From Macrocystis pyrifera (taxonomy: Eukaryota; Sar; Phaeophyceae; Laminariales; Laminariaceae), in the NCBI GenBank assembly GCA_031763025.1, contig JASSKH010000001.1, positions 23,561,840-23,625,839 of the forward strand: a stretch of 64,000 nucleotides of DNA, in the 5' to 3' direction. The first letter of the stretch is position 1. The number at the start of each line of letters is the position of its first letter. Below the pieces are notes generated by a model. It saw nothing but the letters and a program-made list of their open reading frames with translations. It had not been told where the DNA came from and did no database searches. The position numbers and the translations under genes are program-made. This document shows, piece after piece, positions 15,732-56,400 of the stretch.

Positions 15732-18700
15732 ATGACTCCTACGGTGGCCTCCGCGCAGACGGGAGTCACTCCCCCGACCGGAACCGAACAGACGAAGATG
15801 AAGCCTCCCTTTCCGGTCGGACCAATGACGGCGATTGCAATGTGTCTTGTGGTCCATGCTTACGCCCTCTGCAGCCTGTTTCCCTACGTGGGTTACATGG
15901 TGCGGTTTCTCGGAGCCACCGAGGACAAGGACGAGGCCGGTAAGTTTTGCTCGCGTTCACTCGTGATCGATCGTGCGATTTCTGGATGCCGAAATCGCTG
16001 TTGGGGGTGGCAGTGGCGGCGGTGTTGCTGTTGTTGTGTCGGTAATGGTGATGTTGGTGGTGGTATTGCTGTTGTCGCTGTTGTTATTGCACGGTTCTTA
16101 CATAATATTATGTTATTAGCCATCCAACGTCCGTGGACAGGACGAGATAGACTCCAGTGATTTTAATGGCGGGGAGAGGGGGTCTGTCCAAGAGAGGAGA
16201 AGGGAAAGAAAAATACCGAGTCGTCACAGATTGATATAAGCATGTTTCGCAGCAATGCACCCAGAAGCAACCGACGTATGGTTGATCGAAAGGTTGGTAG
16301 AGACAACCATCAAGACGATAAAGCGAGAGCGCTATTCGAAAAATTAAGCCTAAGGGCGATAAAAAGGAAAAAAGAAAAAAAAAAAAAAAAGAAGAGCAAA
16401 GCAACGGGAAACGAGCAAGGAAAGCAGGGAGAATAAGGGTAAGAGAACTACCGAAGCCGACAGTGATGAATCCGCCTTGACAATTCGTACAACTGATACG
16501 ACTCCTACAATCCAAACAACCAATACGTACGAATCTTGGAATTATAGTACCGCTCCTACAATTCATACGACTGCGTAATATATACCTGGTACGAAATGCT
16601 CTTACAATTCATGCAAGTCATATATACGACTCTTGACAAATCATACAGCTCATACAACTCATACAACATACAGCGCATACACCAGAAGCTCTACTCGTAC
16701 CCTGCTGTGTCCCCCTAACGTGTTTAGACTACTGATGTGTGTCGAGGTGCACTCTCGTGTGTGTCGGCTACCAGGTGGGTGCTTGCGGAGTATCTTTCGT
16801 AAAAATCACGTGCAGGTCCGTGCGAGGGTTGTCGTTCGAAATACTGTACAGACCTGGGCCCAACCCTAACCCTAACCCCAACGCCCAGGGAGAATACTTG
16901 GAATGAAGATGTATTAAGGAGTTACTGTGAAGTGCTGCCAACGATTTTACCAAAGATGCACCAAGTCGTAAATATTAGTGGCCGCCACTTGGTACGTCTT
17001 TATGTGCGTGCTGCCAGAGCTCACCGCGCACATCGTTCTGTCTTGCATACGAACAAGGCTCCTGACGAGTGCCATACACGGCAGGAGTATACGAGCAGCA
17101 CCTGCTGTACATTTTCTGAAGCTTCATATCATCTTGGTGCATCACTCAACAGCCGACTTTGAGAACAACTGAAATTCAACCCGGGTACACAAGCCAATAA
17201 GGACTACTGTACGTAAACCTCGCCGTTAATTTGCTGTACCTGAAATGCTACACGTACACATCGGATCCAAAATACAGTCCAGGAAAACCACGAAAAAAAA
17301 CGAAAAAAAGGAGAGGCAGGTGAGTACGGGTGACATTTACAGGGAAACATAATAAATTCGGCGGTTATGATGCTGATGTTAGTGTAGAACGCGCCCATTC
17401 CCAAAATAAGAAACCCAACCCTCATGTTCCTGTTATTATTAGAATAGGTGTCCTTTAGTAACTGTATATTGGACAGTTTGAGAGTACTGGTTGATTCAAT
17501 GGTTGAGGATTCTCCGTTCGTGAGAAACTTTCGCGCTCATTTGTTTTGCAGCCCCGGTAAACGCCGTATCACGCAGTCTCCCCCTTCTTTTTACTATACA
17601 GCAGAAGTGGTCCCTCTATGCTGCCGGTACGTGCCAGCAGGCCAATACACCGGCATTATTCGGCACACTGCCACACCGCCTAATCTTAATTCCGTGTGTG
17701 CCGAGCCATTTCACCGGCAATATATCGGGCATCGGCATTATAGAGGGACCCCTACTGTATTGACTGTTGTGTGCTCACGCACCAACCCGACCATGTCATG
17801 CAGGTTACTACGCGGGTTACCTGTCGTCGGCCTTCATGATCGGGCGCTTCTTGGGTTCGTATTGCTGGGGTCGCATGGCGGACCGCTACGGCCGATTGCC
17901 GGTCATGTACCTGGGGCTGGGCTCCTCGGGGTTGCTGTTGATCGCTTTCGGCTTGTCAACCTCGTATTTCTGGGCTGTTGTTATCCGGTGAGGGGCATGT
18001 TTTTGTGCAAATATGAGTATGTGCAGGCCAACGAAAAGTGAAAAACCTAATATGAACATCAGGCTCGCGTCTCGGCAGGGCTGCTTGCCACTGATTGAAG
18101 GAAACGGTTGAAATACACTGTGTACGAGACGAATAGAATCAACCCCACCAACCGTAAGCCTATCAGTTCAACCTTCACCCCGGGCCAATCAGACCAAATC
18201 TCGAATACGTGGTACAGTAAGCTCTTACTGCGTTTTGGGGGACGCGAAGAAGTTTGGATCAAGAAAGCTTGTGCAGCGGCGAGCGCTGCAACAATGGTTA
18301 CCTGGTACCTGGTATGCAATAGCCCATTGTCAAGGTTGTCCAAGGATGGTGCCATAGTCACAAGGTTATAAGGCTGGCCTAGACTAGGAGTTCTTGTTGG
18401 TGAGCCGATACTATATCATCAAGCAATATGACCTGGTCTGTGTCTATGCTGTTCGTTCGCCTAAGTTTTGTTAGCCCCTGTGAAGGTATTTCCTACTGAG
18501 CTATAGGGGTAAAAGACCGATCAATTACCCAGTCCAGGGTAATCCTTGTAACACTCTCCCCCCCTCTGAACGGTGGAATCTTTGGGGTGTCGGTACCGAA
18601 CCAGGGAGATGTGCTTTGAGGGACACACGCGCAAGCGTTTCTATAAAAGAAACGTTCGAAGTTAGATTCGGACCCATGTCCTCGACGGCGTCAAGTGTGA

Positions 18701-21700
18701 AGGTGTTACCGACTGAGCTATGGAGGTAAAAGATCGATCGAATACTCAGCCCAGGGTAATCCTTATAACATCCTCAAGTTAACGCCCATTTATTGTTAGC
18801 CCCCTTGTCAACGCATGCTGCTACTGCTGTAGGGGTGCATCTGGTAGATGTCATGAGGTTTGCTCGCTTTTGAGGAGCTCTATAAGTATACCTCACCCAC
18901 AGACCGAATTTCAGGGGAAAATAACATACGTACTCTCAAATAACCCCGGTGCCGGAGAACAACCCCGTGGGCTCGTAGATATATATGATACCTGATATCG
19001 GACAAAATCATATGTATATCCTACATGAGACCGAACAAAAACCCGTAGTACGCGTGATTATTATTGTTATTACTTGTGTTATGCTTGCCTTCCGACAATA
19101 TAGCGTAGATGTCGTTCCTATATAAACCGAATATCCTTGCGCAAATCAGTAGTATCCCTCATACGCTTCTCTGCCAGCCGCTTCCCCAATTTCCATTTCC
19201 CACATCATTTTATTTTAGCTACCGGTATAGTATATCCTATTCCTCATCAACGTTTCATCCCCAGGTCATTGGTCGCATTCCCCCGGCTTCTTCCTCCCTT
19301 CCCCTACGCGCGATCGAAGTATTCCACGAAGCTTGCAAGGATGGCTTTCGACGAAATCCCCGATCTCGCACCTGTTTTTCTCATTTTTAGAACTATGACA
19401 AGCGCTCAGAGACGGCTCCACGTGGTAGTCTGAGTGACCCGATGACTTTGGATGGTGGAAAACGGCTTCTTCAGAACAAACGCCCGTTTGATCAGGTCAA
19501 CTTCTCGGAGATTTTGACCCATCCAGATATGACTTTACTACTATACCTTTCTAAATTGTCGGAGTCATTGAGGATACCTGATGGTATTTTTTTTATAAAA
19601 AAGCGTTTGGGATTTTGGCGACTTGTTGAATAAATTGTAAAAGCGGTCCAATTATTTTACCTCGTGGTATTCAGCTGAAGAGACAGAATAAAACCGCTAC
19701 CGGTACACGTTATATTGCATACGTCATACAAATATTTGTAAATACAAACGTACACGGGACGTATACCCAGCATAAGCCTATACAAAACCCGTAGTGAGCG
19801 CGATCGAAGTATCACTAGTATCCCACACAGCTTGCAACGGCGAGTTTCTACGACATCCTCGATCTCACACCTGTCGTTTTTTTAAGTTATTTTTAATAAA
19901 AAAACGCAAATAATACCGGGTTCGATGCATGCTACCTGGTACGACAGAAGTGCACCTATTTATTTCTGAGGCTCTTTTCTCACTTCAGGAGGTCTTGAGC
20001 CCACACAAAAACCTTACCTTGAGACAAAAGCGAAACTGCAACCCGATGGACTGTAGGTACCACGAACGCATAAAAAATGGTATTCCATCGATATAGGGCG
20101 ACGGAAGTTTTTCGTTGAGGATCAGAAATATTTGGCCGAACGATTCCACGCGTCAGATTCCAAACGCGGTGGGCAGTTAATTCCTCAGCCGAGGAGCCCC
20201 GTTAGTCGAAAATGCTTGGGCCCGTCCCATGCCCCCCTAGGTTATACATGGAAAGGTGATGAGCGCGCACAGTAATAAACGCTGCACCGCTGCTCGTGAT
20301 ACGTTTCCATTTGTCATCCCCGAACACATACAACTAATTTAGGGGCAAGGGTGGATGAAATTATAGAATTATTTTATCCCTTTTAGAACCGCGGTCCCGT
20401 TGATGGGAGAAACGCTTGTAGTTAGAGTGGTTTGTCCCCAAAAGGAGACTGCAGTACTAAAAGGGGTGACGACCTGAGCTTGTGGGGATCAATAGGTTTG
20501 ACAAAAAGAGGGACACGCTAAAGCCCCCAATCGAACCTGCGAGCACTCATTTTCCATAGAGGTAGGAGTGAAAGGAATTATTACTAATTACTTAAGTACG
20601 TGAACTATTAATAGTGTGGATTATAAACTGCTTCAACAACAGAGGGAAACTATGTGGAGGTGTGTTTATCAGGAGTAAGAGCGTCTCGCAAGGGACGCAG
20701 CGTCAATGGCTGAATGACTTAGGCAAGCAACAAAGGAGTACGCCCCCCCGACAGAAAGAGTGATGCATGTGTAGAGGCTCTGTCTCTGTGAAGAAAGATG
20801 ACAGAGGTGGCACCGCAGTGTCCGTGAAGACTGCTTATAAAGACGAAGGGCAGAGATGGTTTGAAAAGGCACTTATGTGGCTGTTATGGAAAGACGGTCG
20901 ATCGGAGAAATCAAGAAAGGACGAGAGGAGGGGTGAATGAGTGAGCGTGGCCGACAATTGGTCATCTCGGGACAATGCCCATGCTACGGGCATGGGCAGG
21001 TGCACTCTACCGTAGCCCGTACAATTCCCTGCAATGTTCTCTACAGCGCTGTAGAAACGTTCTGTCAATGTTCCCAGCTTCGCTACTGATGGAGATGCAT
21101 TATTTCACAATATTCCGTACTACGAGTAAAATAAACTTGTAATCTATCTTTATATTGCATTTCCTCAAATATCCGAACTAGGATACTCGTATGCTCGTGT
21201 CCGTGCACAGTGACACAGATCAAGAAGATACCTGGTACGTATGGATCTCGACCTCGATATCCTACAGAAATACCCACGCTCTTCACCATATCGTCCACGG
21301 CCCAGTCGTTCATCCGAAATCTTGCTCTTCGCTGACGCTGCCTCGCCGCCGTCCGACATAGCCGGCGGCACATGCATGTGACAGCAAGGAAGCACAGCAG
21401 AGCACGGTGGTGGTGACTCGATCGACAATTCTGCGCAATCCATCACAATTCAAGAATACCACCGTATTGTACGCGGGGAGAGAGAGGGGGCTGCTTTGAC
21501 CCTGAGTATCGACGAAAGAAGAGCAAGCATCTGAGTGTTCGAGCTACCAAGGGATGAGCGAAAACAGTAGATGGACTACTCAATGCTCAATACAGAGGTT
21601 TTATAACCCAACAACATGAACAAACAATAAAAACAATCAGAGCGACTTGTTTTGCAATCAGAGGGCAAAAACATATTCCTTGTGGAGTGCATAGTTTTCA

Positions 21701-24700
21701 GTTTGGTTGGGCTTCCCTTTCGATTTTCTTTTGTCGGGGAGCGTTTCTGAGTGATCAACGTTTAAGCTCATGCTACCCATTGTCGGATGGAAAACGCAAC
21801 AATCAAAGGAAATGAGTATGTATTCATATACTGTAATACAAGTGGTATTGCCAAGACATCTAGGTAAAGCTCCTCAGTTGAGTCGAGGAGCTCCTTTAAT
21901 CACAAAAGCTTGTCCCTCCCAAAACATCCCGCCTAGCTGGTTGGCACGGCCCTTGGCCCAGACGAAATGACGCTCTGCTAGACAGGGGGAACGACAGCCA
22001 GTTTCGATTCATTCGTCAATTCGTCGCCTCAACGTGGCACGAAGTTTCAAACTCGATCGTTTTGCGTGCGAGCAGGGTTCTCACCGGAGCATTGAACGGT
22101 GTAGTAGCGAACGCCAAGACGATGATCTCCGAGGTGTGCGGGAAAGAACACGAGGTGGTCGGCATGAGCTTCGTCACAGGTGATGCCGTGTGTGACCACA
22201 GAGCTACACGCTGCATGTATGTGTGATGATTCTAAAGGATTAGGATCACAAATATCCATATTTGTGGAGGATCATACGAACAACGCCTCCACATATATAT
22301 CAGAGTGGATTCCACTTAATCCATAGGTACACACAGCACAGGTCATTCGCATATTATACCACCGTGTACTGCATAAAAAATCGGACAACTAGCACTGATA
22401 AAGGAAGGTTTTACTGTAGAGTCATGAGGAAGTAAGAATTTTGGAAGATCTTTTATAGGATGTCACCCAATTCAAAAGTACTAAAACTTGCCCTATACTT
22501 TAGGCGGTCGCGTGAATTCGCAACTCGCTTAATTTTGACCGCGCAAACGCTTCATCCGCCCGGCCAACGCGCCTATCTCTCGCCGTCAAGGTTGCTGGTC
22601 TGTTGGACTTATCGTCGGGTCTGGCCTCGGTGGCATGCTGGCGGAACCGGTTCATCATTATCCCACTGTATTTTCGGAGTCAGGGCTTTTCGGAAGGTGA
22701 TACGATAGTCACGCGAACAATAGTGATAATGCGTGCATGGTAGGGTAGCGAGCTGGCCACACTTCAGTCTCACAATAACACCAACAATACCGTTCGAGCC
22801 AACGGCAACAGCAGCCAACAGTAGTAGTGTTGTTTTTCTTCTCCCGCACAACAGGGCTGCGAATCAATATTTTGTTTTGTTTCTCTGCTTACACCTCATT
22901 GCTGTCTGCCGACTGTCCGAACTGTGTATGTCCTACTGCACAGCAGAACTGTGTTATATTTCAACTGGCCTACTCAGAACTATCCAAATAATTGGTGCCT
23001 CTCCCGTCTCCCCGCTGTCTGCCTGCCCACTGTCCCAACGAAACCAGGTTCCCGTACTTACTTCCGAATATCCTTGGGGCGATCCTGGCCTTGCTGTGTT
23101 TTCCTCTGGTGTTCTTCTTCCTCGAAGAGACCTTGGACGTCCAGAAGGGTGGCGGCAGGTATTTATTATCGCTTTGGGCGCAAATCGAAGGACCGCTTAC
23201 TAGTAGTGTTAATAAAATGTATAAACGGACCTAATATTTCGGCCCAGATTGGTATCTACCTATTTGTTTACAAGGGCTTACTATCGTAGAAGGGATACCA
23301 TACTTCTACTGCACAACTCTCACAGTCAGTGCTGACTGAACCTACTATGAATTGCTTCGTCAGCGCTGACTGAGTAGGAAATCACAAGTGCTGGTTAGGC
23401 CGGATAACCTTCTATCACGGGGAACCATAGTAAATAGGACCTACGGTACACACAAAAAGCTATATATTTCCCTATTTTTAGTAACAACATTTAGTCCTAT
23501 TTACTATGGGCCTGTAAAAATAGCGAAATATATAGTCTTTGAATGTATCGTAGGTCCTATTTAATATGTTCCCCCGTAATAGCCCACCACATAATCAGTA
23601 TCCTGTAGGGTAAAGGGATCTAGCCTACTATTCGTAGCCGAATTCAGTCTTTGAGTAGGCCCGCGCAAGTGTTGGTTAGGCGGGATAACCTGCTATAGTA
23701 GTCTACCATACTCAGTAGCCTGTTGGTGAAATGAATAGCCTACGAGCCCACTATCTATAGCCTGCTCAGACTGGTGCTACCGCAGGGAGGTCGCATTTAT
23801 GTCCTACAGTTTCAGGTGATGAGAGTCACTCGGCCGAGTGACCACCTTATTTCTTGGCGGTCTCAATTCTTAAAGCTTTTCTGGCATTCACGGTATGTAC
23901 CGCCATGGGATTGTTTGTTTATCTGCGACAACAAAAAGCATACTCGTCGATTTTTGAGTGAGGTGCAGAGCCACTTGCCCGAGTGGCGTTAACGCGGTAG
24001 TGAAAATATTGGCATCATCATACCCCCCCCCCCCCCCCCATATCTACCGTAGCAGTAGTCCTCAGTCGGCACTGACTGAGTAGACATTCACAAGTTGGTT
24101 AGACGAGATACCCTTTCATGCTCGGAAGCATATATATATATGTATATATATACATTCGACGGGGTGCACCAAGATATCGTAACATACTATTTTTGTAGGT
24201 AGAGAGTAGAACACGTATGTCACACTTGTCACTACATATTGCCTCATACGCACCTGATATGGTAACACCAGGGTTTCGGAAAATTCCGTTGGGTGCAGTA
24301 CACGATGGACAACGTTTTGCAGACATATTGCCTCATACCTGGTATGCGCGTAAAGTGAACCACCAGGGTTTCGGGGTGAGCCTGTTGGTGCTACTGTAGG
24401 TGCCGGTGTAACAAGATGTGGCGTATTGTCTGTAGATCACGGCCTCACAGGGCCTAGTGTCCGTCTCTTGTATGGAAGCAGGCGCGGCTTCGAGCCCATC
24501 CCGATTCCGAAGGCGGAGTTGCACAACCAGGCGGCGGTGGCGGGCGAGGGAAAGGGTGTCCGAACGACCTGCCTCGAAATCGGCTACGACCCCCAGCTCG
24601 CGAACGGCGGCGTCGGCGGCAGAAACGTGGCGTCGGAATGTGGAGAAAAACGTGAATATCAAACAGTCGGAAGCGGCAGCGGACGCAACGGTAGCCGAAG

Positions 24701-27700
24701 CGTCCAGGTGGGAGCTGAGGAGCGGCTACCTCTCGTTTGGCAACCCTCGGAGCGGTCTAGCGGAGAGCGTGCGCTGGAGGGGGGGGAGTTGGGCAGTGTC
24801 TACAACGGCGCCCCTGAAGATGCGCGTCTGGGGGGAGGAGTGGGTGGAGGTGGAGAGGGGAACCGGGTCGACGCGGGCGGCGGTGGTGGCGTGAGTCGGG
24901 GAGAGGGGAGGAGGATTGCCTTCTTGAGGGAGGTTCTTCTGCCCCTAAAAATTCTCAAACAGGAGCGGGTTCGCACTGTCATGTTCACGTACGTCTCGTT
25001 TTCGGTGAGAAGGGGGCACCGTTTTGCCGCCCCCGCTGCAGTAATTGTGGTATTTTTTAATATTCAACGGTAGGAGTAATGTGTATGGAGTAGGGTCATA
25101 CCACTGCTGTGTCTTAACACTACTCTGCGAGTTAAAGCTGCCTTGCAGACATTTTTCGGAGGGGCTTCATGTCAGCGGCACCATGTCTATGTGCGTCCCA
25201 CTGATCAACCAAGCGTTTCCTTTGTGCCTGGGCGATGCACCAGCGAACCATGCTGTACGGACAGGAGGGTGTTCAGTGTTTCGCACGTTGCTCGCCAAAA
25301 CATATAGCAAAGGTTAGAACGGAAAAACCAAAGGGTACGCCAACCCCTACTGAACAATGCCCTTCCTTGACTCTACTACTGTAGCGACCATCACAAAAAA
25401 AATGTATTTTTGGCAGTCGCTCACTTGAGGAGCCCCCGTCAAAGTGAGAAAGTGTTGGGCCCAACACCTACCCCCCTCCTACTCATTGAAACTGTCATCC
25501 ATGTGCAAGTCCGCCTCACAAGCGGTGCATAGTGGGATGTAGTCCACCCATTACGCGACTCCGGTAGTTTCGTCTGATTATCCAACCCCGTCACTCAGAT
25601 CAGTCAGATCGTGATGAGGAACAACAGAACGATACGCCCGTTTACTCAACAGATACATTCTACGATAGAGGCAGCACTTTTCCGCCAAACTGTTTTCTGA
25701 GTGTCGGTGCTCCTTAACCCGAAGCCATCGGAATGCCAATCTTATTTCGAAAAATGGCTTTTCTGTATATACTTTGGGCCATGGGATTATTCATCGGGAT
25801 GCAATTTGATTTTTGCCGAAGTCAGTTTTCGAGTGAGTTATATAGCTCCTAAAGTGAGGGGCCTCAGAAATAAAATGGTGTCCCTCTACTGCTGTAGCAT
25901 GCATCGGGCGCCCACGGGCCAAACGGCACCGTGCAACCGCGCCTTTTTGTTCGTCTCGGGACCTTTTTCGATCGTTGCGCGCGTCGCTTTGGAATCGCTC
26001 AGGCCATCTCGTATGGGTGCCAGGAAGTGTATCCACTGTGGGCGCTCAGCACGCTGGCGAGCGGAGGCTTGGATTGGACGACGAAACAGATTGGACAGGT
26101 GACGAAATAAACGAACGTTCCCCTATAGCAGGTACCCCTTACGTATCCATTTGCATGTATGCTATATTATTTCCAAGTCGGGCGCTTTCTAGATCTTTCG
26201 ACGGTTGACTCATGGCTTGAGTTGCTTCTCATCGAACTTGACGAAAGCATGAGGGTGCCCTCTGCGCGTTATCGGCAGCGGGGCCATGGCTTAGATCATA
26301 CCATTCAGGACGGAAGGTAAGGGCCCTTTGATATTCGTACTAATGCGTGCACGATCCTTTTATTTTCGTTCTAAGTGGTGAAGGACAGCTGTGGGACACC
26401 GATGGAAGGCTCCAAGAAAGCAAGCGCGTAAAATTCTCGGAATTTTCTGTAGGGTAAGTTTTCTTTCCGTGTCGCTCGTCGACGTTGTTTTTTTCCCGCG
26501 TCTGATGTGGGTAAATGTACACCGCTCTGGGCGTAAATGTAAGGACCGTTTAGACATTAAAATAGATACCAATAGTTCCTTATATTCGAGCTCAGAGTGG
26601 CATCAGCTATTACAGGGGTCCATAGTTAATAGGACCTATGGTACACATAAAAACCTATATATTTGCCTATTTTTACTAACAATATTTGGTCCTATTTACT
26701 ATGGTCCCCTGTAATATGCGAAAGCCCCAATACGCAATCCCAGCTGGTTAGGTATCTAACTACCAGTAATACCAGGGAAGTTGTAAAACATATACAACGG
26801 ATCGAGTGATATTGGGTGCTTTTGTTTATGTGGAGGAACTCCATTCCAGAGAAATGTTTGGGCTGAATAGTGCAACTTCGGTACCTGCAATAGGGCGGAT
26901 CCGAAAGAGATTGGGGTAGATTCTCAGCTGAGTTAAGCTCCGTCAATGGGAAAATGTTGGGGCTCAAAACGAGCGACTCATACCTACTTTAGCGCGGCTT
27001 GGTAAGAGACAGAAAACAACACTTCGGTCTGGTCGCCGCCTCTGGTTTCCCACAAAAGGTGACAACGCACCCTGACCTCCGGACCGCTCCACACATTCTT
27101 TGATCTCGCGTCGGGTTGCTTCACACGTTCAGTCCATTTCTACCTGGTCGGTGAAAACCCGACGCGCTCCGTCCCGGCATTGTAGGGATGCGAAGGTCTA
27201 TGGTCATACGACTACGGCCATGCATGATATTGAGTATCCCCCCCCCCCCCTCCTCATACGACTACGGCCATGCATGAGATCGAGTACATCTCTCCTATCA
27301 AGTACCCCCCCCCCCCCCCCCCCATTCCCCCTATACGTTTGCGCCCGTCCGTTCTCTCCTGCCGTACGCCTTTTCCATGGCGCGTGTGAAATTTCGACAC
27401 TGACTCGCTCCCCTTTCGGTTTTGCGCCCTCCCATCCGCTTTTTCGCGCTTCAGATCCTTTCGATGTGTGGCGGAGGCATGGTGATCGTCGAGCTCTGCG
27501 TGTATCCGTTCGTCGTCAAACGAATCGGCCCGACGAGGTCGCAGCGCTGGGCCTGCTGTATCGTGACCCCGGTCGTCCTTTCGTACCCCCTCCTCTCCGT
27601 GCTGCACGACGACAGGGGGGTGCTTCTGGCTTCCTCGCTAGCCCTGCTGTTCTTAACCAACGTGTCCATGACCGTGGTGAGCGTCACGCTCCCCCCTCCC

Positions 27701-32445: not shown

Positions 32446-32574
32446 CATAATATATATATTATCGCTTAGAATACACAAGACAAGGAAGAAAGGGGGAGAA
32501 CATGAAGTACACACACAACAAGAAGAAGTAGAACAAGAAAAAGAAGGGAGAAAGCGGCGGACAAGATACGGCCC

Positions 32575-32583
32575 AACCCGCTG
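32575..32583. repeat. Target-site duplication, left (AACCCGCTG)
   Basis: Nine bases, AACCCGCTG, directly before the MULE A terminal repeat. The same nine bases recur at 40288-40296 and 47228-47236. Nine bp is the usual Mutator/MULE duplication length. Confidence 0.9.
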
Positions 32584-33068
32584 GGGACCTGGTATAAGTA
32601 CCCCATGGGGTACGTGGATAAAAAGTACCCCAAAGAGGTACTTTTAAAAGTGCACGTACCCCAAACAAACCATAGGGTTTCTACAGTGTACTCGTAGTGC
32701 ATTTCGTTTGTGCCGGCAAGATCCCCCACGCCACGCCGGGCCATCGCCTATCGACACGTCTGGTCCGTTCCCGTCCCAGCTTCCACTCGCCAGCACCGCA
32801 GAGCAAGCCAAACGGAAAACACCCCAAGCCAAGGAAACAGCAGCTAGAAGCACACGCACAGCTCTCCATCGTCGGGCACTGCAGGCAATTAGAGCGGTAA
32901 AGAGAGAGGCTTCAGAGCTTCGAGCCAGCAAGCCTGGTAGGGAAGTCTTCTGCTGTAGCAAGCGCCAACCTACCCCAACAGCAATAGAAGGTTAGCAGTC
33001 CTCGTCTAAGTGCTGGTGTTGTTGTAATACCTCGTCGAGACAGCTTGTTCCGGGTTATCTCCTCGCCA

Positions 33069-38438: not shown

Positions 38439-38710
38439 TCCAGGAAGAGACCCAAAGCCACGTAGGTGGCCAGCCAAGAGCGTAGGATTCGACACGAGTC
38501 GACACAGGAAGGAGGTGCCGAACCTTTTTCGCGATAGAAATACAACATGTGCATGGTAGCGCGCACGGGGGGGGGGGGGGGGGGCGTATCGGGGGGGAGA
38601 GAAAAGCCTGCTATATGACCCCGGATCTCAGTCAGGACTAAGAGGGGGCGAGAAAAGAAATGAGATGGAAACATGAAAAGAAAAAAATAGTTCATGTTGG
38701 GCGCAGCGTA

Positions 38711-38985: not shown

Positions 38986-40287
38986 GCAGCAAAGTAAAAA
39001 TGAGGTTAACAAAGACAAATTTCCCCGCAAAAACGCCAGGTGAATAAAGCGCGAGGCTCGTAGAAGATGCTGGTAGGCAGACATGGTGTTCCATGGATGA
39101 ATTGAAGAATCCCCTGGTACGCAACAGCGTTTCCTTGGAGATATGTTTATATTTCCAAAGCGTGACCACTCGCTCGCGCTACGTACTACGTCGTCGGGGG
39201 GCATTACGTTGCCTACCACCCTCTCGCCGCAAAACGACCATATTAATACATCAGAACGCGTATACTATCTACATCGAGTACGAAGCAAGCAGCTATTTGT
39301 ATGGTGCTGATATATACACCAATGTCGATATTTAAGGTACGTCGAAAAGTGGAAATTGAGTGGCACATATTCGGAGGGCAACCTGAATAACATATCGGAG
39401 GTAAAACTCCTTGCGCATGAACTTACGGTTTCACTATCCGACAATGTATTAATTATATGTGCAGTGTACGTTGTGAAGCCTTACTGCTGCTTGCTAATAC
39501 TCGTGTTGTTTATAGTTGTACTACAAAATTAAACAATGCAGGATGTACAGATACACGGTATATACTTCCTGAAGGTGTTGAGCAGTAGGCGGCAGAGGTC
39601 CAGCACAGGCCTGATGCTCGCGCTGCTCATTTGATGCACGTGCGGTGGGTGGTCGTTCGTGCACCATGGCGTCTGCTCTTCTTTCTAAAATACGACAAAA
39701 TTAGGTATATTATCATCAAAACAGCAGTTTGTATTATAGTCTATCACCCGAATCATGAGGCCAGGACAGGAGGAACCTATTATCCTTGATAGCTCTTCTG
39801 CACGCATTTCCTAAAAACAAAGTGGTGAGGACAACCAGCAGCAGCAGTAGTAACATACCCAGGTAAAGGTTGTTTGTTCGCCGGGAGTGGACGGAGAGCG
39901 ATGGGTTACAGATAGATACATACACAATAACAATGTACTATTAATAGACCATGATCTGTCGGATACCAGTACGAGTGGGAGTATCATACTCTATAACGGA
40001 CGACGTCGACGTACTATTGCGGGGCAGCGGTAGTATAAGATACCAAATGACACGATAGTACTGCTGCGGCTGTATGTGACCTTATGTAGTGGTGCCGCGG
40101 CCTGCTGTACAGCAGTAGCGCACCGGATCAGATCAAAGCTTGGGAGACGTCGACATTGGATGTATGTATATGTGTTATAGTTACTGTAGTAGTAGGTCTT
40201 CCTTTGGGGTACGTGCACTTTTAAAAGTACCTCTTTGGTGGGGTACTTTTTATCCACGTACCCCATGGGGTACTTATACCAGGTCCC

Positions 40288-40296
40288 AACCCGCTG
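40288..40296. repeat. Shared middle target-site duplication (AACCCGCTG)
   Basis: The nine bases between the right end of MULE A and the left end of MULE B, identical to both outer copies. Confidence 0.9.
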
Positions 40297-41859
40297 GGGA
40301 CCTGGTATAAGTACCCCATGGGGTACGTGGATAAAAAGTACCCCAAAGAGGTACTTTTAAAAGTGCACGTACCCCAAACAAACCATAGGGTTTCTACAGT
40401 GTACTCGTAGTGCATTTCGTTTGTGCCGGCAAGATCCCCCACGCCACGCCGGGCCATCGCCTATCGACACGTCTGGTCCGTTCCCGTCCCAGCTTCCACT
40501 CGCCAGCACCGCAGAGCAAGCCAAACGGAAAACACCCCAAGCCAAGGAAACAGCAGCTAGAAGCACACGCACAGCTCTCCATCGGCGGGCACTGCAGGCA
40601 ATTAGAGCGGTAAAGAGAGAGGCTTCAGAGCTTCGAGCCAGCAAGCCTGGTAGGGAAGTCTTCTGCTGTAGCAAGCGCCAACCTACCCCAACGGCAATAG
40701 AAGGTTAGCAGTCCTCGTCTAAGTGCTGATGTTGTTGTAATACCTCGTCGAGACAGCTTGTTCCGGGTTATCTCCTCGCCAAACAGAGCAGATACAACCA
40801 ACCTGTTGTGGCGGGCTGACCGGTTTATTTTTTGTAATTTGAATTTGAAATATTTCAAGGGCTTGACTTCTTACGTACGTACAAAACTCACATTCTCTCA
40901 TCCTTCCGAGAATACTCTGCTTCGCGGGCGGCCAGAGAAGATACAACCAACTTGTTTGTTACCGTTTTTTTTGTTAATTTGCATTTTGAAATATGTACAA
41001 GGACTCCGCTTCGCGGGCGGCCAACGCCGCGCGCTGCGCTCGCGAAGGGACACGTCAAACGGAATTGCGAAGGAAGTACACACTTGCGCGAATCTGGCGA
41101 CTTAAAAATGACAATATCTCCATGCAACATTGTGCAGCTGCTGTTGTTGGGTCTCGCACCTGCAGCAGTAGGCATGCGAACATACTTGTGCGAATTTGGC
41201 GACTACAAAATGACAATAGCTCCATCATGCAACATTGTGCATCTGCTGTTGTTGGGTCTCGCACCTGCAGCAGTAGGCGCGCGCACACAAGGAACGTTGA
41301 TTCCCATGGCATCGGCCTGACAGCGTTCATGTGTTTTTTTCACAACCAACCCTCCTGAGATATCCGAGGTGGAAGTTGTATTCCGGGTAGATGATGTAGG
41401 GGTCTGATCAGGTGTATCTCGACACGTGATATTTGACACGAATGGTGTTTTGCGTTGTCATGAATCCTTACGCACTTGACGTGTTGATTCGAGGTAGTGT
41501 CGGCATTCACGATTCATAGCAACAATACCACGAACGGTGTTTTTCGTCGGTCGTCAAGAACGTCCGGTGCTTCGTCTGAACGGCAGGAGCAAGACGAGGA
41601 CAGCATCATGGCTGGACTTAAGAACAGTTCAACTCGGAAGAACAACAGCAAGCGAAGGCATCAACGCAGGGACAGCAAGACAAGCTTAGCGAGACGGGCA
41701 AGGTAAGAAGAAGGCCGTCGATTTTCTCGTAGTAACTCGCAGAAAGGTAGAGAATAGCGCCAAGCATCGGCACACCGGGCGTTGCGATGTAAACCTCGGT
41801 TAAAGGTTGGTTGCCGCTCCGTACTACCGTTGGGGCCTGCATCCGCCGGGGCAATTGTT

Positions 41860-42180
41860 GGAGCCATCGGCATAGTGAACATGCCGCATTTTTCGCCCAA
41901 TGCGGACCTCCCTTTAATATTTGTACCGTCCTTCCCACGCCCTCCATTACTGTGGCAAGGTGATGTACCACTCGACCGTGGCGAAAAAACGGAGGAGCTG
42001 GAAGGCATTCTCAACAAACTCATCTATCCGCTAAACACTCGAGGTGGAGCCTCCAACCAGACCGCTACCTCCAAGCGTCAGCTCTCTAACTTCTGCACGG
42101 AGGAATGCACCGTACTGAAAGTGTTTGGCTGCCCCGTGGGCGAGCTTCCGATCGTGCCGGACCGTGTGGAGGAAGAGGCA
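41860..42180 (+). pseudogene. MULE B accessory exon, unrecognised
   Basis: A frame including GEKTEELEGILNKLIYPLNT, a ...NFCTEECTVLKVFGCP segment and RVEEEAG before a possible donor GCAG|GT near 42179. I do not recognise the family. It lies upstream of the OTU exon and is absent from MULE A. The preceding exon (to 41702) has lost one A against MULE A, which shifts its frame. Confidence 0.45.
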
Positions 42181-42542
42181 GGTCGCGCCTTTTTTTGGGG
42201 GGTTGTGGCCCAGTTGTTTTGTGCTTGTACGCTCTCCTGATATACTAGACTGACTATGCGGCCGGCCAACGAGTTGGTGCTTGACCGAAGAGTCCCGTTT
42301 CGCGTTTCGCATCTGTAGGTTTTAGGTTGCCGGTGCGTCGCAACGCGTTTGGCCAAGTAAATTTTAGATCAGAGGATTTTTCAACCCCCATCGTCCTATT
42401 GAAACCATGGCGGATCAGCGAATACACAGCATAAAGCACGTACCAGGAAAGTCGTTGTTGCCGACGTTCACTAATTCGTATCCGTAACGAATGCGCACCC
42501 GTACGGCCTGTTGGTCCCCGTGTTTCCGGTGTCATTCCCCAG

Positions 42543-42911
42543 GCCCGACAGTTGTTTGACGGTAGCGCCACACGGGTGCTGCCTTTGGAGTTGCGTCAGG
42601 TGTGTCGCGCCTTCTACGTAGAAGGCGATGGAAACTGCTTGTGGCGTTCTATTTCTCACGGCCTATGGGGCACCGATTACTTCTGGCCCCATGTGAAGCT
42701 CGTGGTGCTTGCGAAGGCCGCGAAGAACGCCGAGCAACTGGTGGGAGAGAATCGTCACCTGCACCACTCCTGCCTATACTACAGTAACGCTGTTCTCGCG
42801 AAGTACCGAGTAGCCAACGACTGTAAGCAGGACGACTACGAAATGATGCTACTGTCCGAGATTCTTCCCATGTGCCCGGACGGGGCGTGGGGTAGCCCTA
42901 TCGAGTTGTAG
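42543..42911 (+). pseudogene. OTU-like cysteine protease exon in MULE B, truncated
   Basis: After an AG acceptor (CCCCAG at 42542) the frame reads ARQLFDGSATRVLPLEL, then VEGDGNCLWRSISHGLWGT. The D-G-N-C is the catalytic Asp/Cys block of OTU deubiquitinases. It continues through an LVVLAKAAKNAEQL helix, a YEMMLLSEI helix and the WGSPIEL block that in OTU domains precedes the final strand and the catalytic His. The frame then stops at TAG, exactly where sequence homologous to MULE A (35951) resumes, so the His part was lost in a deletion. In intact elements an OTU protease could process the element or host proteins; that is inference. Confidence 0.75.
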
Positions 42912-42924
42912 TGTATTCCCTCCC

Positions 42925-45329
42925 ACCGTGAAGGTTATTATTTCGGACGCCGACGCTGCCATGACAAGCGCGGTTGCGGAGCATCTTCCAAACACAGTGC
43001 ACTTGCATTGCCTTTGGCACTTGATGAAAAATGTCAAGAAGAAGTGCCAAGGCGCGCTCGGGCAAAGCACTTCACACCTACAGGGCGTTAGTTGCGCTTG
43101 TTTTTTTTTAATGGAGTGCCCAATACCTGGTGCATATAACCTTACCAGCGTTTTCCGTGGATTTTTGTCGCCGTGTCGCTCGTCCACGGGTTGCAGGCCT
43201 TTGACGGGGTGTGGCCGAAAGTAATGGAAATGGTCAAGGACTCGGCGTGTCAAGCGTACCTCAGCGGCTACCTATTCGGGTGAGTCCGACGGTCAGACGG
43301 GTACGAGCATGGTTTTCGGTTTCTGCTCAGAGACAAGCATAATGCCTTGCTAGACAGAACGATAAAATTATCTCATGGTTCAATCGTTGTATTTACAGGC
43401 AACGGAAGCACTGGGCCCGCTGCTACCACCCGACCGCTATGACCCTGAGCATGACGGCATCATCGACGGTGGAGGGAATCTTCGGTGTGCTAGAAACACG
43501 CCACGTCATCAACAGGAAATCCACCCTGAACTGGGTGAAGGAGGAGCTGGCCAGACGAACAAGGGCCTTTGCTGTGGAATCCCTCGCGTGAGTTTGAATC
43601 AAGGGTAATGCGGCGAGGGTGGGCGGCGCCAATGTTTCATGTCTAACCCTCCACATCATCCATCACATGCTTTCTATTCCACGATCTGGTGTCTTCTCGT
43701 TTTAGGGCGATCCGGAAATATACGGCCAGTTAGTTGGCTTGAGTTCAGTCGCTCATGTTGCTTTTCTTTCGTGGTACACGTAATCAATGGTGAAAAAAAA
43801 AGACGGCAGGAAACATCGATTGAGGAGAGAAGTCTATTATCCTTGACGAACAGTAAATTGGTCCTCAAGATGTTGGGTAGATTGCGGTAGATTGCTGACC
43901 TTGATACTAGGCCCAGTTACGGGGGGTATACGTCGAGATGTCAAGTCTTACACCATATTTGGGTGCTGCATGCTCACCTGAAAGACCCTCGACTGCCCTG
44001 TCCACATTGACCGAAACGACCGCAAAGACGTGCCGCCAAGGTCCCCGCCGTCAGCATCAAGGAACTGGAGGACAAAGTGCTCAAGTCTTTCGAGCCTATG
44101 CTGCAGGAACTCGAAAGAGTCAAGGTCAGCCACTACGCACATAAGGTGAGAGGAGACAACGGTAGTACGTGCCGGTAGTCCGTCCTTGACAGTTGTGGTG
44201 CATATAATCTCCTTCAGTATATTCTCATGCTGAAATATGTTTATAGCCGTGAGCAGATTGCACCTCTCTCCCCTGGACCCAGTGTGAAATGTGGTTATGT
44301 AGCACTATTATTACCTGCTGGACCACTCAGTCGGCGCTGACTACGTACTGACTGAGTGATCCAGAAGGTAGTGCTCTATATCTAACCACTGTCGATCGGT
44401 CCAACAGTTTGAGTAACCATCAATGCTCGGTTTCATCTACCCTTGTGCAGAAAATGCTGGAAGAACTACGGACAAGCACCCTCTATGATACAGACGTGCT
44501 GGCAGAGGGCAATGGTGCCAACGACTTCCTGAGGAAGTTGGCAGAGCACAGCAGTGACCACCACGATGTATGTCGGGAGGTGCCGGAGGAAGGGTTCGAT
44601 GAGGACTATGATCCATTGGGCCCCAAATTTGGGGCGACATCTTTGCCCGCGTTTCATCAACTGGTTGAGCACGTGCAGCTAACTGCTGTCGTAAAAGTGG
44701 TGTTCCGGTACCAAGACGAAAGCGCGCACATCGTTGTTGTCGGGCCTGACGGTTTTCAGCTATGCACTTGCTTGCAGGTGCTGCGTTGTGGCTTGCCATG
44801 CAGGCACGTATTAGTCGCACTCTTCACGCGGCTGCAACGCGCCCTAGAGTTCAATGGCGATTGTATCCACCCTCGTTGGCGATATTCTGGTGACGAGTGG
44901 AGTATCCACAGGGCCGACCTTAGCGTGTTCGACGGGCATGAACGAGGGACGTACGATGGTGGCTTCACTGACGATTTTGGGGGGATATACATGCAGGATG
45001 ACAACCATGTCAAGCGCAGCGCCCTAGGTGAGGTCATCAAAGGGAAGCTGAGCGCCAACATGATGGAGACATGCGTTGCCGCGGTCAGGAGTGTTATCGA
45101 CCACTTCGACCAAAACCGCCCGAATTACTACAATGCAGGGATGGAAGTAGCGGCGAGGTTCGCGCGGGATGCGCAAGCTTTTGTGCGGGGCCCTCTCCTC
45201 TCTCGCGACCCAGACAACATCTCGGGCATACTCAATCCGCCCGATTCGTCGGTTAGAAGTAGGAAGGAGAGTCGGTATCTAGACTGCACGGAGCTACACT
45301 CGTCCAGGAAGAGACCCAAAGCCACGTAG
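42925..45329 (+). pseudogene. MULE B transposase remnant (second Asp to SWIM)
   Basis: Retains VIISDADAAM, HCLWHLMK, the AFDGVWPKVMEM exon, an E-bearing exon (frame shifted relative to MULE A by small changes near 43450) and a complete SWIM exon from about 44451 to the stop at 45329. The first catalytic Asp is missing, so it cannot encode an active transposase. The last exon is longer than in MULE A (…SSRKRPKAT). Confidence 0.8.
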
Positions 45330-45575
45330 GTGGCCAGCCAAGAGCGTAGGATTCGACACGAGTCGACACAGGAAGGAGGTGCTGAACCTTTTTCGCGATA
45401 GAAATACAACATGTGCACGGTAGCGCGCACGGGGGGGGGGGGGGGGGGGCGTATCAAGGGTGAGAGAAAAGCCTGCTATATGACCCCGGATCTTAGTTAG
45501 GACTAAGAGGGGGCGAGAAAAGAAATGAGATGGGAACATGAAGAGAAAAAAATAGTTCATGTTGGGCGCAGCGTA

Positions 45576-45852
45576 TGTCATTTAGGGTCATGGTGTCCCC
45601 TAAGGTCTACCTGGTAGTAGGTAAACCGCGTAACGACCAAGGACGATTTCACAGGTTCGAGCCCCGCCAACTGCATGCTCGTCTATACTCGTCGGGACTT
45701 CTTCTTGTGCATAGAGTTGACTTGCGGAAAGCGCGAGAGCGTGAGTCAGCGACATTCGATGGAAATCGACCACCAGTCGGGAATGCTGAACCCTCTACGC
45801 GATAAAAATGAAGGCACGTACCGGGGGGGAGTACAGACGGCTTGTCCTGAAG
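45576..45852 (+). mobile_element. SINE-like segment inside MULE B
   Basis: Near-identical to 38711-38985, with a one-base insertion after GCCCCGCC. Present in both copies, so it predates the duplication. Confidence 0.6.
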
Positions 45853-47227
45853 CAGCAAAGTAAAAATGAGGTTAACAAAGACAAATTTCCCCGCAAAAAC
45901 GCGAGGTGAATAAAGCGCGAGGCATAGAAGATGCTGGTAGGCAGACATGGTGTTCCATGGATGAATTGAAGAATCCCCTGGTACGCAACAGCGTTTCCTT
46001 GGAGATATGTTTATATTTCCAAAGCGTGACCACTCGCTCGCGCTACGTACTACGTCGTCGGGGGGCATTACGTTGCCTACCACCCTCTCGCCGCAAAACG
46101 ACCATATTAATACATCAGAACGCGTATACTATCTACATCGAGTACGAAGCAAGCAGCTATTTGTATGGTGCTGATATATACACCAATGTCGATATTTAAG
46201 GTACGTCGAAAAGTGGAAATTGAGTGGCACATATTCGGAGGGCAACCTGAACAACATATCGGAGGTAAAACTCCTTGCGCATGAACTTACGGTTTCACTA
46301 TCCGACAATGTATTAATTATATGTGCAGTGTACGTTGTGAAGCCTTACTGCTGCTTGCTAATACTCGTGTTGTTTATAGTTGTACTACAAAATTAAACAA
46401 TGCAGGATGTACAGATACACGGTATATACTTCCTGAAGGTGTTGAGCAGTAGGCGGCAGAGGTCCAGCATCAGGCCTGATGCTCGCGCTGCTCATTTGAT
46501 GCACGTGCGGTGGGTGGTCGTTCGTGCACCATGGCGTCTGCTCTTCTTTCTAAAATACGACAAAATTAGGTATATTATCATCAAAACAGCAGTTTGTATT
46601 ATAATATTTATATTAATAGTGTCAATCGCTAACAATTCACGAAAAAACAGCAACCAAATCAATACATTCAATGCTTATTTATTTATGTCTATCACCCGAA
46701 TCATGAGGCCAGGACAGGAGGAACCTATTATCCTTGATAGCTCTTCTGCACGCATTTCCTCAAAATAAAATGGTGAGGACAACCAGCAGCAGCAGTAGTA
46801 ACATACCCAGGTAAAGGTTGTTCGCCGGGAGTGGACGGAGAGCGATGGGTTACAGATAGAAACATACACAATAACAATGTACTATTAATAGACCATGATC
46901 TGTCGGATACCAGTACGAGTGGGAGTATCATACTCTAACGGACGACGTCGACGTACTATTGCGGGGCAGCGGTAGTATAAGATACCAAATGACACGATAG
47001 TACTGCTGCGGCTGTATGTGACCTTATGTAGTGGTGCCGCGGCCTGCTGTACAGCAGTAGCGCACCGGATCAGATCAAAGCTTGGGAGACGTCGACATTG
47101 GATGTATGTATATGTGTTATAGTTACAGTAGTAGGTCTTCCTTTGGGGTACGTGCACTTTGAAAAGTACCTCTTTGGTGGGGTACTTTTTATCCACGTAC
47201 CCCATGGGGTACTTATACCAGGTCCCC

Positions 47228-47236
47228 AACCCGCTG
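47228..47236. repeat. Target-site duplication, right (AACCCGCTG)
   Basis: Follows the MULE B right terminus after one extra C. Identical to 32575-32583 and 40288-40296. Confidence 0.88.
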
Positions 47237-52389: not shown

Positions 52390-53280
52390 CTCCCCCCCAC
52401 CCTCCTCCTCACTGATGAAAAACAAAATAGCCCGCGAAAATACACCACCCTGCAAAACGAAAACACACCAACTGATCCAAGCAGTTCAACTGCATAATTT
52501 GATACAATGCTGATACATCAGACAAGCGTACAAACCAACACTGTTCGTGTATTTATGTATAATTTCACCTGCTTCCCCTCAGTAACCCGACCCCGCCATA
52601 AAATCCCATGCCAACAAACACAACTACAAGGTGTCGGAAGCCGAAAGCGCATCAACCGAGACAACCATTTCATGTGAAAATAGTTGGTTTCATTGGTTTT
52701 GTACCGTACGCAAGTTGATGCAAACCTCGTGCGCGTAAGACAAAATCAGATACACCCCTCCTCCCCCCGATAAAACACTCAGGACAAAAACTAACAAGAC
52801 TTGCAAGCCAATACACATCCACCGAGCCAAGCAGTGTACCTTCATCATTGCAGGCAATGACGCAACGTCAACCAAGCATTCAGGGTAATACGTAGAGGTC
52901 ATGCTTTTATATCCGCCACGCCTAACCCCCCCCCTCCAACGCTAACCCAGTAACCCTCCCCCCCATCCACAGGCGGCCAAATAGGAAGGGAATAAGACTA
53001 GCAAAAAGTTTTTATGTAATACCTGGTGTATGGAAACAACGTAATGAACGCCCAATTGTTGGAGGTGTCTCTATTAGGAGTAGGAACGGTGCTTCGTCGC
53101 CCCCCCCCCCCCCCCCCCATCCACATAGTAAACCTCAGAACAGCAAACACAATGAAAGCCGAGATTGCGCCAACCGAGTCAAGTAGTTCGTGTTGAGTAC
53201 TTACTTAGATTGTTTTTGCTTGCATCATATTCGAAACAATGCAAAACCACGTGCGTGCAAGCCAATAAAACACATGAATC
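52390..53280. repeat. C-rich divergent tandem repeat, ~170 bp unit
   Basis: The motif CCAACCGAGCCAAGCAGTTC, with variations, occurs near 52465, 52650, 52818 and 53170. Each copy is preceded by a GCAAGCC/GAAAGCC segment and a CCTCC/CCCCC run. Spacing is about 185, 168 and 352; the last fits two units or one unit plus the inserted LINE fragment. Confidence 0.55.
52972..53119 (+). mobile_element. LINE fragment within a duplicated C-run
   Basis: Matches 2790-2898 of the first LINE (GGCCAAATAGGAAGGG, GCAAAAAGTTT, GGAAACAACGTAATGA, GGAGTAGGAACGGTGCT) and ends abruptly after CGTCG in 18-19 C. CCCCCCATCCACA occurs on both sides (52959-52971 and 53113-53125), a likely target duplication. It holds an ACCTGGTG insertion relative to the other LINE. 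Confidence 0.8.
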
Positions 53281-53418: not shown

Positions 53419-53419
53419 G

Positions 53420-56400
53420 ACCCTCTGGAAACGTTACAGCGAAGCCAAAAGGGGAGGGAGGGAAAGGGGAAGGGAAGGGTGTGCAGGCAAGGGGGGGGAG
53501 GGGTGGGGTAGGTGGGCATCAGGGACCGTCGCAGAGGTAGTTTGGTCCATGTACGGGAGCGTGTCACCTGTATATATTTCCCCCCCCCGGATTACTGAGA
53601 TGGCAATACTAATGCAGCGATAGTTTATCAATTTACCGGATGCGAGATATCGGGTTACAGAAAACCACGGCCGTGTTGCTAGCATACTATTAATACAATA
53701 TGTATTGGTCCATGAAAAAAACTTCATGCAGTAGAGGTGTACCTCTTTGACCGGTTACCCGGGTACTCGCGACTAATACCCGTCTCCCAAACAATTTTCA
53801 CGGATACGAGTAGCACTTGGCACGAAGCGTTTCATTTGCCTCCCCGGGTACTCGTGTACTCGCTGTTGGAGATGCTGTCGTCCGTCTTCTATAACGAGAA
53901 TACGTAATCGAGCTGTGACACGCAGCGTAGTCGTTGGTTATTCGGCTACTCAGACTTGCTCGGGGGGGGAAACGAATACGTCAGCTGTGAGTACGACTGA
54001 AGTAGTGATTGATACCAACTTTGAAAAATGCGCGATACGTCAGACGCGCACAATTGATGTTCGACAACCCTTTGGGCTTTTGGGGCCCCGTGGCATCGAC
54101 ACTACCGCCCCCTCACAAGAAACTTGACCTAAAAAAAGCGAGAAATAAGAAACTCGATACCTGGTATGCTATATACCGAAGTTTGTTTGTGCAAGGCACA
54201 TGCTTCTCAATGAATAATGTATCAATGGTTTTGAACCAATTTATCCGTTTCATATCAGAGGGCCGGTACTGCCGTATACTACGGCTGTATTAATAGTACA
54301 AATCAAAATTACGAGTTTTCATTGAGACCTTTCCAAGCGTCTAAGCTAGAGTTTGCAAACCTGCCAAGATACAATCTGTCTCCCACCCTGTTATCCTCAC
54401 AGAGTATCACCAGTCTAAACAGGTGTCGCACACCTACCCCAGCGACCCGGGCTGGTTGACGTTGTCGATATACCTGGTATCACTTTGTATAATCGTCATT
54501 TTTTTCTGTCGATATCTTTACCCTCTCAAGTCCCTTTCATGTCATACTGCTGTACTCGCTCAAATTATCTGTGTGCACATCATGTAACTCCAAGTGAGGT
54601 AATAACCACCTTTAACTAACAGGGAATCTGCTCAGCCTGGAAAAGAGGGTGCGTTCGATTCAGTACGTTATAGATCTCGGCTTGGTTTCTTATTACTGCT
54701 TGTGGCCGTCATGTGCTTTTCAAAAAATATAAGTCGGATAGATCACGACCTCCTGCAGTAGTAGATGACTTAGGTCGTACCGCTATGATATGTTGGGGAA
54801 GATCTGTCCAGTACAGATCCCAAACAGGAAACGTTTCGTACTCGTAGATCAAGCAGGCAGGTTACACGGCTCTCACCCGCCAACATGAGCTGGGTACTAC
54901 AGATCAGGCTTATATCTGCCCTGAAAGATTTACCCTCTGGTAGATCCTTGGTGTGCAAATCGATGACCGGATGATCGGCCCGGTGTTTTTTCCAAGTATG
55001 TCGTCAAAAACGCGGCGGGTTCAGCTCTTACAGGGACAATACTCTGTAGAGACAAACGAAGTCCTCTATCTCTCGTACTCGTACTACATCTTGCTATTAC
55101 AGGGGTCCATAGTTAACGGGACCAAATTTGTTAGTAAAAATAGGCAAATATATAGGTTTTTATGTACACCATCATACGTCCTGTTAACTATGGACCCCCG
55201 TAATACCTCAGAAATAAAATATGCGAACTACTGCTGCTGTTGTTGTCACCTGCGGCGTCCACGCCAGTCGAACAGCACTACTGCTGCTGTAATACTAGTC
55301 CAACGGGACCCACCTTCTACGGGCCCCTCTGTCGTAGCCGTCGCCCTCAGAGCGGAAGCTTTCACTGATGAAGCTGCTCCCCTCTCTGTCTCTGCAGCGT
55401 CGTCCCAAAAACCCTGGCCAGGGCGTCCTGTGACATCTCCAAAAACTGGCCGCCTTCAGGTACCGGTTCGATCTTGTCGTCTACGAGAATTCGGTTCAGC
55501 CGTCAAGCAGCTGCTGCTACATACCCCTGGTACGTACCTGGTATAGCAATAGACCCTGTGATCTATGAAGTATACCTGGTACACGAATACGTACTGCTGT
55601 ACGGTACGGGGACATACAGGCAGTATACGTGGCAATAACAGACACAGGCGTCGATCAGTGATGAAATGCGAATTTTGAATGTTGTGGGTTGTGGGTTGTG
55701 GGCCGCATCTCGTCGGGATATCGCAATTTGGAACAAAACGTTCAAGCAGATATCAAGTTTGCATCGTGTGGAGGATCGTTTCTCAAACGGAAACTTGCGC
55801 CAATTAACAAGACGTCCTGGCTATGAGCACGCGAAGCAAATGGCGAACGGGATCGGGTACAGCACTCGTGGATAGGATAGTAACAGCAACGACTCCGATA
55901 GATCGGGCATTCTTCACCCCGAAAAATGGTATGCAAAATGCTCTCGATTTTTCGCGTCCAAACCTTTCAGGGCCTGATCTGCTGGGCACAGCAGAAGGAG
56001 GCAGCAGAGCACCCATTGAGCAACCATTGGCGCCTGTAGCGGTCCGGCTTCGTCTCCAGTCCCCGAATGAAGTGTGCACTCTGGGTGCTCAGTTATAGTA
56101 TCCCCGGTCAGAAACGCCTACACACAATGAACGCCATTTTTACACGTACCTCGCTACAGGGGGATGGGCTTAAACGCCCCCTGTGAGTCCCCCCAATCCT
56201 AGTCATTCCCATTGGTTCTGACCAATAGCCTTATTTCTGACCTTCCAGAGAAAAGTGATTGGCTCCTTCAAAATTCAAATTAGGACTCTGGAGAAACGGG
56301 AAATTGTTCCTGAAAGCTCGCAAAAAAACTATGGGGAGCATTTCGAGAAGTCTATCGGTGTTTTGGGCTTTCTCGCCGAGTAAAACGCGCATATTCGGCC

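Follow-up and report, generated by a model that had tools for sequence, protein, structure and literature searches.

What explains the recurrence of the short palindrome TACC(A/T)GGTA in the genome of the brown alga Macrocystis pyrifera? The question arises from a stretch of 64,000 nt (contig JASSKH010000001.1, positions 23,561,840 to 23,625,839; hereafter the window), for which an original prediction, made from the letters alone, had proposed 13 sites against about 0.5 expected and had read them as probable excision footprints of a TA-targeting transposon of the Tc1/mariner type. All 13 coordinates are exact (12 copies of TACCTGGTA and a single TACCAGGTA, at 5052), and a second-order model gives an expectation of about 0.56 for both words together. 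We conclude, with a probability of roughly 0.9, that the word is a footprint left on excision by a DNA transposon of the Tc1/mariner type, a very mobile and non-autonomous miniature inverted-repeat transposable element (MITE) that inserts at TA and that we call MITE2. This reading is supported by three states observed at one and the same TA, by a ladder of related inserts at that TA and by a target preference common to the word and the element.

The excess extends beyond the window. We sampled 200 kb of the same assembly (10 contigs, 20 stretches of 10 kb each) and counted 59 occurrences of the word (26 with a central T, 33 with a central A) against 1.5 expected, an excess of about 40-fold, and none of the reversed word; TACC(A/T)GGTA is the commonest 9-mer of this sample that is not of low complexity, and 4 of the 20 stretches are devoid of it. 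The 12 of 13 window sites that are T-centred on the forward strand form a skew that is absent from the other 200 kb and is perhaps due to chance. In the 20 stretches and the window taken together (264 kb), 72 words for 14,584 TAs correspond to 0.49%. With an assembly total of 537,376,219 bases in 223 sequences, this leads to about 140,000 words genome-wide, a rough extrapolation given the overdispersion between 10-kb stretches (mean 2.95 words, variance 5.7). Forms with one mismatch are also in excess (107 versus 49 expected), the pattern that decaying or imperfect scars would give. The original prediction had named as counter-evidence a larger conserved repeat around the word, or orthologous sites in relatives bearing the word with no 7-bp gap. 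Outside the two TAs we found only weak, mirror-symmetric preferences (T or C beside the TA, T at +6, A or T at +7 in 86% versus 52% in the background, and A at +8), so the word does not belong to any longer repeat.

To ask whether the seven bases are an insertion, we used a very common host repeat, MITE1, which measures about 110 bp in many copies and has the ends TTACGGGGG. CATAG..GGACC has 68 local matches. The spacer measures 6 nt in 53 of them and 13 nt in two, the other 13 matches corresponding to the opposite arm (8) or to unrelated sequences (5). Both 13-nt spacers lie in MITE1 and differ by exactly the addition of TACCWGG (W being A or T), at one TA. Genome-wide, the scarred form of this TA, CATAGTNAATACCWGG, gave 388 matches (backward control: 1), and MITE1 resumes right after the duplicated TA in 38 of the 40 windows read, so that the 7-bp difference is exact; of the two exceptions, L057 resembles a decayed double scar and L064 diverges after TAG. 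Some of these 40 copies are clonal, one group sharing the start ATTACGGGTGAC; many backgrounds differ, and both centres are present. The empty form was found 37 times in 264 kb, or about 75,300 times genome-wide by extrapolation, which puts the fill rate at about 0.5% (388 for about 75,300 empties), the same as the rate over all TAs. A functional word that selection maintains or disperses, e.g., a protein-binding site, could likewise be short, palindromic and enriched, but the exact 7-bp insertion with TA duplication within one repeat, its occurrence at the genome-average rate per TA and the ladder of imperfect products described below make this explanation extremely improbable.

Inserts of five nucleotides at the MITE1 TA gave 304 matches genome-wide (backward control: 0). 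The first 100 comprise 77 CCWGG (55 with T, 22 with A), 13 local duplications and 10 others, six of which are one base off CCWGG. For inserts of 1 to 12 nt, 578 matches were obtained (control: 0), and the first 100 include 43 CCWGG, 18 joins of a prefix of CCA to a suffix of TGG, 7 near variants and 32 others. The 18 joins are CCGG (4), CG (4), CCAG (3), CCATGG (2), C (2), CC, CGG and TGG (one each), the shortest of which could be due to chance, and the near variants are CCCTGG (2), CCTTGG, CCAGGG, CGGG, CCAGC and CAG. Such a ladder would be expected if an element with the ends CCA...TGG were excised and the break repaired by end joining. The 32 others are mostly products of local slippage (AA 9, A 6, GTAAA 5, GTTAA 2). 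The doubled sites that do exist (window position 18299; L004) could be explained by replication slippage or by growth of TACCTGG as a microsatellite, but single copies dominate, the empty MITE1 TA offers no template, slippage products at this TA look different (AATA and GTAAA duplications) and doubles with opposite centres occur (one of five full doubles); we give this explanation almost no weight.

Two further searches were directed at the same TA. CCWGG with any base but T after it gave 28 matches, and the 20 that were read comprise 11 TACCAGGACC, one TACCTGGACC and 8 other variants; none of these 20 contains an element. The eleven TACCAGGACC copies (L069 to L079, of which L077 to L079 look clonal) have an A centre and one further copy (L080) a T; they represent a truncated product from which the second TA is missing, and their strong bias towards A contrasts with the full scars, where T is more frequent. 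CCA with any base but G after it gave 49 matches (backward control: 3), and the 20 read comprise 10 TACCACC, three CCATGG, one CCACG, one CCACGG, four others and one full element. The ten TACCACC windows, which are unexplained, equal empty sites in length.

The full element, at locus L098, is a complete inverted-repeat element of 79 bp that starts with CCACTCTG at the MITE1 TA and lacks the right TA. Its arms of 29 nt are 83% complementary, and terminal inverted repeats are thus present. It belongs to MITE2, an inverted-repeat element of 78 to 80 bp, mostly CCACTCTG...CAGAGTGG, that forms almost a single hairpin (z of −5.6 to −7.6 in the three copies folded). A search for GGTCCTACCACTCTG at the MITE1 TA gave nine matches (backward control: 1), seven of which are complete MITE2 copies of 78 to 80 bp between TA and TAGGACC (L112, L123, L124, L126, L127, L128 and L130), the other two not being at the MITE1 TA; the empty counterpart CATAGTNAATAGGACC demonstrates the TA duplication. 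The same TA is therefore seen empty, with the scar TA-CCWGG-TA and occupied by MITE2. A strict end pattern identified 822 TA-flanked MITE2 ends (control: 0), and the first 100 include six pairs of opposite ends, each 74 apart and flanked by TA at both ends, a spacing that implies a 79-bp element between two TAs. A profile search of the 264 kb detected seven copies, including three weak ones (E 0.001 to 0.007), with none in the reversed control. For the whole genome this extrapolates to about 14,000 copies (with 6,000 to 29,000 as the approximate 95% Poisson range) and to about ten scars per resident copy, with a wide error.

MITE2 insertions and scars also share one target preference. We built a weight matrix from 131 footprint flanks and scored MITE2 flanks against random TAs (the first 100 end rows represent 91 distinct flanks, or 90 after one tandem near-repeat was left out). 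The 90 flanks score far above random TAs (p = 2.5e-14 over 11 positions, 6.6e-14 over +5 to +8), and the frequencies in MITE2 and footprints are close: T at +1, 0.47 and 0.47; T at +6, 0.52 and 0.42; A at +7, 0.47 and 0.46; T at +7, 0.37 and 0.37. Control TA words do not share this preference. The six distinct control words made up eight entries, since two words were counted on both strands; their scores, restricted to +5 to +8, gave p values of 0.02 (TACGTA), 0.05 (TACTCGTA) and 0.18 to 0.83 for the rest, with mean scores of −0.80 to −0.26, compared with 0.47 for MITE2 and −0.62 for the background.

Thus MITE2 lies between two TAs, one and the same TA occurs in the empty, the occupied and the scarred state, and the scars are built from the two ends of the element. 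CCWGG can be read as CCA+GG or CC+TGG, i.e., as a join of both MITE2 ends and not as the end of an element. The original prediction erred on this point: it had suggested an element with CC(T/A)GG ends, none of which was found in what was searched, and MITE2 starts with CCACTCTG and finishes with CAGAGTGG. We propose that a mariner-type transposase would cut a few bases inside each end, leaving on each side TA followed by a single-stranded ...CCA. The host would then join the two ends with the last A facing an A, GG would be filled in on both strands and the A-A mismatch would be resolved to A or T, yielding TA-CC(A/T)GG-TA. CCGG, CCAG, CG and CCATGG would be less frequent joins. Each scar would supply new TAs, allowing re-insertion and re-excision and hence doubled scars.

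Alternatively, the scars could derive from another Tc1/mariner family with the ends CCAGG...CCTGG, through a 5-nt overhang with a central A-A mismatch, MITE2 merely sharing its target preference. Simple annealing would then give CCWGG, as for the C(A/T)GTA footprint of Sleeping Beauty (PMC3878927, Table 1), and the 11 of 20 TACCAGGACC cases with an A centre (against one with T) could reflect GG microhomology from a CCAGG end. No such element was detected in 288 kb (497 candidate pairs) or in the 20 non-T cases read above, the CCATGG joins fit CCA/TGG ends, and MITE2 has exactly these ends and occupies the same TA. We therefore regard a different family as improbable, if less so than selection or slippage.

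Some observations weigh against MITE2 excision as the source of the word. Several scarred MITE1 copies are clonal, so that 388 overstates the number of independent events. In the MITE1 orientation, T prevails over A (the 55:22 given above), which is unexplained. The preference at +8 differs (A 0.40 in footprints, T 0.38 in MITE2). The A-A join is a proposed step, and a 5-nt overhang CCAGG would also produce CCWGG, but it does not match the MITE2 ends. The MITE2 copies are diverged (mean column identity 76% in an alignment of nine rows that includes a mis-registered one), so MITE2 need not be active today. Finally, searches with the Pfam families DDE_3, Transposase_1 and DDE_1 revealed no transposase with MITE2 ends.

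In these searches, DDE_3 (PF13358) had no match, nor did Transposase_1 (PF01359), for which the control genomes gave none either, so that this answer is empty. DDE_1 (PF03184) gave 39 matches, many with open frames, and the three loci read (L089, L090 and L091; C202, C197) encode pogo-type proteins in open frames of about 340 amino acids without shared ends. We rejected these pogo-like proteins as the source: the 72% identity between L089 and L090 extends over about 960 bases and is limited to the surroundings of the coding part. The one frame read has MNGC at the position usually occupied by the catalytic D, and these proteins are possibly host genes rather than mobile elements. The assignment of MITE2 to Tc1/mariner is thus based on structure and footprint, not on a transposase.

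The kind of element is already known. Mariner-type transposases cut inside the element, leaving end bases on the flanks, and the breaks are joined mainly by non-homologous end joining (PMC4561436); Stowaway footprints are described as end fragments of 1 to 4 bp between two TAs (PMC1925063), and a text on a fish element gives 2 to 4 bp as the usual Tc1/mariner range (PMC7913693). MITE2 resembles Stowaway MITEs and the plant mariner-like elements Osmar in its TA duplication, its hairpin of about 80 bp and its footprints of a few end bases between duplicated TAs, theirs being of 1 to 4 bp and joined by non-homologous end joining (PMC1925063, PMC4561436). It differs from them in having one dominant join and about ten scars for each element, and in its host, a brown alga rather than a land plant. 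MITE2 is short like Stowaway (78 to 80 bp; criterion <500 bp), duplicates TA and has a secondary structure, but its ends CCACTCTG / CCGCTCTG differ from the 10-bp terminal inverted repeat consensus CTCCCTCCRT (PMC1925063). It works like a Stowaway/mariner MITE, while its terminal sequence indicates that it is not a Stowaway.

Sleeping Beauty and Frog Prince leave the footprint C(A/T)GTA, and this scar shares with the kelp one a palindromic form, an ambiguous A/T centre and a position beside the duplicated TA (PMC3878927, Table 1). The kelp scar CC(A/T)GG-TA is two bases longer, and MITE2 has CCA at its ends. The end of Sleeping Beauty is CAG. Another brown alga, Ectocarpus, also harbours abundant Tc1/mariner-type MITEs, e.g., TcMar-N1_Ec32 of 217 bp, which differs from MITE2 in length (the comparison is by description, not by sequence); the terms 'footprint' and 'excision' each occur 0 times in the main text of that study (PMC12477816). 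These scars were not described in the titles and abstracts surveyed, which did not cover subscription papers, preprints and supplements and which, for the bare word, came from 20 of the 217 papers containing it.

What is unusual is the scale, with about 140,000 scars, or some ten for every resident element. It is likely, though less firmly than the footprint reading itself, that a single small transposon family has produced, as its scar, the commonest dispersed nine-letter word in a large eukaryotic genome, by about 140,000 excisions and one dominant, mismatch-tolerant join, and that a genome can thus be read as a natural log of transposition and end-joining repair. Cut-and-paste elements are usually counted by their remaining copies; here excisions can be counted as well, at one defined site, yielding, for a brown alga, a ratio of jumps to survivors and a naturally formed spectrum of end-joining products. 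Since a scar lengthens the sequence by 7 bp, it would shift a reading frame, and scars spread over the genome may be a large source of mutation that is absent from repeat annotation. In such a genome, transposon scars should be excluded before a short over-represented word is read as a regulatory motif.

The footprints and MITE copies of the window are as follows, footprints being word matches unless stated otherwise:

5052–5060, reverse strand: footprint TA-CCAGG-TA
16583–16591, forward strand: footprint TA-CCTGG-TA
18299–18314, forward strand: double footprint TA-CCTGG-TA-CCTGG-TA (sites 18299 and 18306)
19933–19941, forward strand: footprint TA-CCTGG-TA
21229–21237, forward strand: footprint TA-CCTGG-TA
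23189–23252, no strand assigned: partial and diverged MITE2 copy, weakly matched (nhmmer E 0.007; no match in the reversed sequence)
23412–23582, no strand assigned: copy of MITE1, the host repeat that provides the test site elsewhere in the genome (inverted-repeat arms, MITE1 ends)
24336–24344, forward strand: footprint TA-CCTGG-TA
26522–26600, no strand assigned: resident MITE2 copy of 79 bp, CCGCTCTG...CAGAGTGG (nhmmer and alignment)
38743–38751, forward strand: footprint, same event as 45608 (duplicated segment)
45608–45616, forward strand: footprint, same event as 38743 (duplicated segment)
53020–53028, forward strand: decayed footprint TACCTGGTG in a repeat copy (a LINE in the original prediction); the copy at 2781–2900 is without the 7 bases
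54158–54166, forward strand: footprint TA-CCTGG-TA
54471–54479, forward strand: footprint TA-CCTGG-TA
55535–55543, forward strand: footprint TA-CCTGG-TA
55573–55581, forward strand: footprint TA-CCTGG-TA

The 13 sites do not represent 13 independent events, since one pair lies in a duplicated segment and two sites form a tandem double. The doubled motif at 18299 had been correctly predicted, and we read it as re-insertion at a TA of an older footprint followed by renewed excision; two MITE2 copies elsewhere (L119 and L120) directly adjoin a footprint, the step needed for doubled scars of this kind. The seven extra bases announced near 53020 are real (the aligner splits them 6+1). At 24336 the footprint is present, whereas the claim that a duplicate at 24237 lacks exactly CTGGTAT is weak: the alignment has several other gaps, and this paralogue is too diverged to prove a 7-bp difference. 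The MITE2 copy at 26522–26600 has CA on both flanks, perhaps a decayed TA.

Other words are enriched as well. CTATTAATAG is enriched about 68-fold in the genome sample (in the window at 20605, 39938, 46882 and others) and corresponds to the site that holds MITE1, CTAT-TA(CGGGGG...CCCCCG)TA-ATAG, with no evident duplication outside; it is either a highly specific target or the remnant of precise excision. We rejected a MADS-box-like reading of CTATTAATAG, as the enrichment is essentially confined to the TTAA core (17 of 25). In L009 to L028 and the window, the TA-bounded words TACAGCAGTA (48-fold), TACCCGGGTA (36-fold, partly from a tandem array at L024:3296-3439), TACGAGTA (5.5-fold) and TACAGTA (2.8-fold) are also enriched and unexplained. 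As further footprints these four are unsupported at the MITE1 TA (CAG 1, CGAG 0 and CAGCAG 0 among the first 100 inserts), and neither TACAGTA nor TACGAGTA, whichever the orientation, shows the flank preference (p 0.05 to 0.83). Indels of 5 bp, TACAG, occur at four local sites, so TACAGTA may nonetheless be a footprint.

The region 32572–47236 of the window harbours two large duplications. Sites 38743 and 45608 sit in the two copies of the first (36219–39738 and 43085–46603, 98.4% identical); the second (32572–34096 and 40285–41806) is 99.3% identical. An open reading frame in the duplicated region (44352–45326) has a weak match, below the cut-off, to a SWIM zinc finger, and the duplicated segments possibly belong to a large transposon. 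No Rfam family or tRNA was found in the window. A near-perfect palindrome of 176 bp is located at 40203–40378, with nested smaller palindromes such as TACCCCATGGGGTA.

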